A DNA stretch of 64,000 nt from Stygiobacter sp. (GTDB lineage Bacteria; Pseudomonadota; Alphaproteobacteria; Rhodospirillales; Magnetospirillaceae): positions 1 to 64,000 of the forward strand of contig VBWB01000033.1 in the NCBI GenBank assembly GCA_006218045.1, read 5' to 3'. The notes below the pieces were generated by a model. It saw nothing but the letters and a program-made list of their open reading frames with translations. It was not told the DNA's origin and did no database searches. Both the position numbers and the translations under genes were made by a program. Shown here one piece after another: positions 14,504-15,275 of this stretch (position 1 is the first letter of the stretch; each line of letters begins with the position of its first letter).

Positions 14504-15275
14504 ATGCCTCGTCAGATCGCTTTCTACGGTAAGGGCGGTATCGGCAAGTCCACCACCTCCCAGAACACCCTGGCCGCTCTGGTCGAAATGGATCAAAAGA
14601 TCCTGATCGTCGGCTGCGACCCCAAGGCCGACTCGACCCGTCTGATCCTGAACTGCAAGCTGCAGGACACCGTGCTGCATCTGGCCGCCAAGGCCGGTTC
14701 GGTCGAAGACCTGGAACTCGAAGACGTGATGAAGATCGGCTACAAGGGCATCAAGTGCACCGAAGCCGGTGGCCCCGAGCCGGGCGTCGGCTGCGCCGGT
14801 CGCGGCGTCATCACCGCCATCAACTTCCTGGAAGAAAACGGCGCCTATGACGACGTTGGCGCTGTTCGCCGCCAACAACATCGCCAAGGGCATCTTGAAG
14901 TATGCCGGTTCCGGCGGCGTCCGCCTCGGCGGCCTGATCTGCAACGAACGCCAGACCGACCGCGAAATCGATCTGTCCGAGAGCCTGGCTGCCAAGCTGA
15001 ACACTCAGTTGATCCACTTCGTGCCGCGCGACAACGGTGTGCAGCACGCGGAGCTGCGTCGCCAGACCGTCATCCAGTACGCTCCGGACTCGAAGCAGGC
15101 CAGTGAATACCGCCAGCTCGCCACCAAGATCCATGCCAATGCCGGCAAGGGCACCATCCCGACCCCGATCACCATGGAAGAGCTGGAAGACATGCTGCTG
15201 GAATTCGGCATCATGAAGTCCGACGAAGCTGCCCTGGCCGAGCTCGAGGCCAAGGAAAAGAGCCTGTGCGGCTGA
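14504..15275 (+). pseudogene. nifH: Nitrogenase iron protein NifH, internal deletion and frameshift
   Basis: Codons 1-118 encode a normal NifH start: [10 protein letters not shown]-loop (from about residue 8), Cys97 in GCAGRG and the DraT target Arg100. After GAYDDV the sequence jumps to [17 protein letters not shown] in another frame and then runs normally to the stop at 15275. Compared with the family, about 110 bp are missing. They would encode the stretch containing switch II and DVVCGGF with the second [4Fe-4S] cysteine (Cys132). Restoring 110 bp gives 293 residues, a normal length. As written, the reading frame ends at 15106 after 82 wrong residues. Either the gene is inactive or the sequence has a deletion error. 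Confidence 0.93.

Follow-up and report, generated by a model that had tools for sequence, protein, structure and literature searches.

The nifH gene of Stygiobacter sp. (14504-15275) lacks 110 bp and is divided between two reading frames. We attribute this, with a probability of about 0.57, to a real, recent and inactivating 110-bp deletion in the strain's only nifH, produced by illegitimate joining with 0-2 bp of homology. The window, by which we mean the whole stretch of 64,000 nucleotides that was analyzed (contig VBWB01000033.1, positions 1 to 64,000), belongs to contig C51 of a draft assembly of 4.33 Mb in 62 contigs that is 99.94% complete. What the first-pass annotation had noticed was borne out on all points that were tested. 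Three readings had been offered by it, namely a real loss, a laboratory or population variant, and an assembly error, and this range of readings is supported; we lean somewhat towards a real loss over an assembly error, since the nifH break does not carry the signature of the suspected errors in this draft.

The nifH break and its surroundings

From the distance between the two halves of the gene, exactly 110 bp are absent relative to 102 of the 103 loci in which both halves were recovered, which gives precision to the earlier estimate of about 110 bp; in the one remaining locus the distance is 113 bp longer than here, i.e., by one extra codon. These loci comprise a relatives-search set (23 of 24 showing the 110-bp difference) and a named set (79 of 79, its eightieth locus, L102, being left out as both halves were not recovered). 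The two sets overlap, and their members do not count as independent observations: certain genomes were entered once anonymously and again by name, and for a few genes there are duplicate entries (L009/L033, L010/L034 and L012/L035).

The frame opened at ATG 14504 leaves NifH after GAYDDV and ends at a stop in codon 201, giving a product of 200 amino acids, while the second half of NifH lies one frame over, reading from 14859. Reading of the frames agrees with the first-pass annotation as regards the shift after GAYDDV and the normal remainder to 15275. It had also called codons 1-118 normal, which holds for the first 117 and for two bases of the next; the third base of codon 118 is ambiguous, the break falling between 14856 and 14857. 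An original codon 118 of GTC, the codon in Magnetospirillum gryphiswaldense MSR-1, would leave 0 bp of homology at the junction, and one of GTT would leave 2 bp (TG). Restoring 110 bp to the 772 bp present gives 882 bp, i.e., 293 codons and a stop, as had been calculated.

In MSR-1 numbering the absent segment encodes residues 119-155, including Cys131 and the sequence DVLGDVVCGGF. We take the former to be Cys132 in Azotobacter numbering, the [4Fe-4S] ligand that acts together with Cys97, and the latter to be switch II of NifH, and the missing stretch thus holds residues essential to the iron protein, as the first-pass annotation had stated. The 5' part retains the P-loop GKGGIGKS (residues 9-16) and Cys97; of the remaining features of a functional NifH, the second ligand cysteine, switch II and a single frame of about 290 codons are all absent. 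Rescue by translational frameshifting is ruled out because the lost residues are missing from the DNA itself.

Table 1. Coordinates of nifH, its break and the associated nif features in the window
Feature	Position	Strand	Evidence and remarks
nifA	5550-7235	+	TIGR01817, 690 bits; intact
nifB	7324-8940	+	TIGR01290, 662 bits; intact
draG	12506-13387	-	TIGR02662, 459 bits; intact
draT	13402-14220	-	PF07357, 363 bits; intact; no NCBIfam match
NifA-type TGT-N10-ACA sites	starts 14309 and 14328	+	pattern match
sigma-54-like -24/-12 element TGGCAC-N5-TTGC	14414-14428	+	read by eye; no match there to a stricter -24/-12 pattern
nifH 5' part	14504-14856	+	codons 1-117 and two bases of codon 118; PF00142 positions 1-119, 195 bits
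deletion junction	14856-14857	+	110 bp absent (residues 119-155, Cys131, switch II)
nifH 3' part	14859-15275	+	shifted frame, ALFAANN to the normal stop; PF00142 positions 153-271, 136 bits
premature stop TGA	15104-15106	+	reached by the frame opened at ATG 14504
nifD	15365-16819	+	TIGR01282, 853 bits; intact
nifK	16920-18446	+	TIGR01286, 827 bits; intact
nifE, nifN, nifX, NifX-associated gene	24109-27784	+	TIGR01283, TIGR01285, TIGR02663, TIGR02935; frames intact
nifV	29481-30647	+	TIGR02660, 516 bits; intact

The neighbouring nifD, nifK, draT and draG had been described as intact, and their open frames and profile matches (Table 1) confirm this; nifW and a nif ferredoxin gene were also recognized, again with intact frames. 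Sigma-54 promoters follow a -24/-12 consensus, and an element resembling it precedes nifH together with putative NifA-binding sites.

Several other features were observed in the window. Between nifK and nifE, a gene with a GmrSD_N domain is directly followed by a HipA-type gene (20351-23248), and the stretch 20012-23989 did not align to contig C13 of the related genome G005 or to the 60 kb around nifH of MSR-1. Just 3' of nifK a 47-bp unit is repeated 2.6 times (18479-18600). A SIR2_2-domain protein is encoded within the nif cluster downstream of nifB (9569-10549), and a counterpart occupies the corresponding position in both MSR-1 (97%) and G005 (86%). On the minus strand, 45636-54890 specifies a protein of 3084 amino acids that has a match of the serralysin C-terminal type besides FecR and RTX calcium-binding repeats.

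Search for a second copy and comparison with relatives

The first-pass annotation had considered the strain Nif-minus unless a second nifH exists, and proposed a search for such a gene and for vnfH or anfH. When all 62 contigs were screened no second nifH, vnfH or anfH was found: PF00142 strongly matches only the two halves described above and, beyond this gene, gives only five weak, partial matches (22-32 bits, four of them above the family cut-off), on which basis these candidates were rejected. A whole-genome search with nifH DNA yielded one match, to itself (13 of 221 first-look candidates scored). The missing segment was likewise not found elsewhere in the genome using a 120-bp query from MSR-1 (40 of 46 candidates scored); the matches were short (about 14-29 bp) and chance-like, with a best E-value of 0.04, and do not support relocation of the segment through rearrangement or programmed excision. 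With neither a second NifH gene nor a copy of the segment, the strain is without a nitrogenase iron protein, if the sequence is right.

By nifH DNA, the closest relatives among the genomes compared are MSR-1 (G007), the chromosome of which is 4,365,796 bp long (PMC3953193), and G005. MSR-1 shows 98% and 96% DNA identity to the two parts of the gene and has the same gene order, draG-draT-nifHDK, but possesses the 110 bp and a continuous nifH of 293 codons. In a sample of 289 genomes of the class, NifH of at least 82% identity was found in nine, this one included; in eight it is whole, and here alone it is split. No earlier report of this broken nifH was found in the literature searched.

Against MSR-1, dN/dS values are 0.0087/0.111 (ratio 0.08) for the retained part of nifH, 0.0121/0.121 for nifK and 0.0067/0.063 for nifD. 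The remainder of the gene and its neighbours are therefore undecayed, as they should be in a pseudogene created by a recent deletion, and the event is either very recent or not real. This lack of decay would be predicted outright by an assembly error, whereas a real loss would have to be very recent to show it. Indels in C51 relative to MSR-1 that are not multiples of three either sit intergenically by position or cancel inside a gene (7017-7033 in nifA, 8909-8912 in nifB), three places (716, 27333 and 27786) having been inspected in detail.

A wider survey took in 214 MSR-1 ORFs, picked on mechanical criteria of length and GC bias, with orthologues of at least 80% identity on contigs C51, C41 and C29. 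Of these, 204 were covered over at least 90% in one frame. The ten that were flagged include clear mid-gene breaks in nifH and in one chemoreceptor gene on C41, an ORF that spans a repeated 210-bp element and looks spurious, and seven that miss only an N-terminal stretch, three of these having the upstream part in another frame; the seven were taken for wrong start calls. That the sole other clear mid-gene break is itself a suspected assembly error (see below) counts in favour of such an error in nifH.

Suspected assembly errors in the same draft

An error of assembly or scaffolding would mean that contig ends were joined inside nifH, 110 bp being dropped without Ns, and that the real nifH is normal. 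We regard this as a tentative alternative that deserves serious attention, at less than even odds, and it is a realistic option for this draft. Silent, frame-breaking losses without Ns occur in chemoreceptor genes at about 41961 of C41 (37 bp, relative to the MSR-1 orthologue over 123 kb aligned), 65479 of C62 (about 16 bp, relative to paralogues) and 21425 of C52 (1 bp, relative to paralogues), and at about 17870 of C19, where 19 bp are absent from a paralogue of the repeat at a 27-N gap. The loss on C41 sits in a hairpin common to dozens of paralogues and has 0 bp of junction homology. Judging from their place, all four are probably assembly joins, and the apparent pseudogenes that they create are probably assembly errors, which suggests that the draft contains some false frameshifts. 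Compared with MSR-1, contig C41 also has insertions (about 90-210 bp) at 21456, 26991, 28362, 37262 and 148577; the 210-bp insertion is matched by an 80% copy at another place on C41 and by one copy in MSR-1.

Chemoreceptor hairpins also coincide with the ends of contigs, C8, C23, C59 and C20 starting or ending inside them, and with N gaps at about 47747 of C54 (63 N) and 49626 of C16 (42 N), each standing for 208 bp in MSR-1. In another repeat, 27 N at 300534 of C41 represent 107 bp in MSR-1. These three cleanly measured gaps are thus understated by 80, 145 and 166 bp, and a gap of 110 bp could therefore have closed to zero. Two further gaps on C41, less certain as the MSR-1 copies are diverged, are written as 8 N for roughly 42-104 bp and as 54 N for roughly 128-181 bp. 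On each side of the C54 and C16 gaps the two copies share exactly 59 identical bases, and the repeated sequence at the ends of C8 and C23 is also 59 bases long, which would fit an assembler working with overlaps of this length.

The nifH break shares with the four suspected errors the loss of frame, the lack of Ns and little junction homology (0-2 bp), but it differs from them in two respects. First, each of the four joins has a flank that recurs elsewhere, for 49, 56, 49 and 59 bases (at the best offset, in about 0.81 Mb of the genome), whereas the flanks of the nifH break recur for 9-14 bases in the same 0.81 Mb; for the rest of the genome, the nifH DNA search described above matched only the gene itself. 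This is background: at 400 random places the longer flank had a median of 12 and a maximum of 28, none reaching 40. The force of the comparison is lessened in that, of the four joins, all but the one on C19 are situated in repetitive hairpins. In intact chemoreceptor hairpins (n=30, 330 positions) the median flank recurrence is 20, with 79 positions above 28 and four at 49 or more; the hairpins being repetitive in any case, the C19 join (59 bases) is the sole clean example of the repeat signature. Second, the losses without Ns range from 1 to 37 bp, so that the nifH loss is three times their largest, and the gap of 107 bp was given Ns.

As nifH answers to neither the repeat nor the size pattern, an assembly error, if this is what it is, would probably have had another cause, e.g., a hole in the coverage or foreign nifH DNA in the sample. 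In MSR-1 the segment has no unusual single-strand structure (z = -1.4), which gives no support to a break at a strong hairpin, and with folding so unremarkable a coverage hole is not expected. Conservation along the gene does peak where the deleted piece lies (mean identity 0.91-0.92), and this could have tangled the assembly if another diazotroph was present in the sample. Such a foreign nifH would, however, probably need to share more than 62 bases exactly, this being the longest stretch that MSR-1 nifH shares with any of the 79 named loci. In 9 of the 79, half or more of the longest shared stretch falls within the deleted part, such stretches lying mostly elsewhere, so that a break due to the stretch most shared between species is only weakly supported. 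The folding and shared-stretch tests thus provided no positive evidence for either cause.

Origin of the break and its meaning

The remaining explanations are less probable than those above. A locus polymorphic in the culture or sample, with intact and deleted alleles of which the assembler wrote the deleted one, would be consistent with a recent deletion and undecayed surroundings, but neither a second allele nor a stray piece was found among the 62 contigs, and we think it improbable. Least credible is a natural lineage that shed the iron protein only, with the other nif genes kept under selection and ammonium drawn from neighbours, or with the remaining nif proteins put to some other use.

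Under a real deletion, the explanation that we favour, illegitimate joining would have removed 110 bp from the strain's only nifH. The loss would have arisen recently, in culture or in the population, under nitrogen-replete conditions, and the strain would thereby be Nif-minus, provided that the sequence represents its DNA correctly. Recent pseudogenes formed by small illegitimate deletions occur in bacterial isolates, and the nifH break resembles them in being internal and frame-breaking, with scant homology at the junction and intact neighbours; it differs in that the gene affected is both the marker and a key component of a large pathway of which the rest is intact. NifH is needed as electron donor and for maturation of the P-cluster and FeMo-co, and nifDK are therefore useless without it.

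In biological terms a real loss would be an inactivating deletion of a common sort, though in an important gene, and neither a real deletion nor an assembly error is out of the ordinary. An error here would show how false frameshifts can go unseen in a draft that is 99.94% complete. Surveys based on nif gene sets would score this strain, with its nifA, nifB, nifDK, nifEN, nifV, draT and draG, as a diazotroph; going by its assembled genome, it is probably unable to fix nitrogen.
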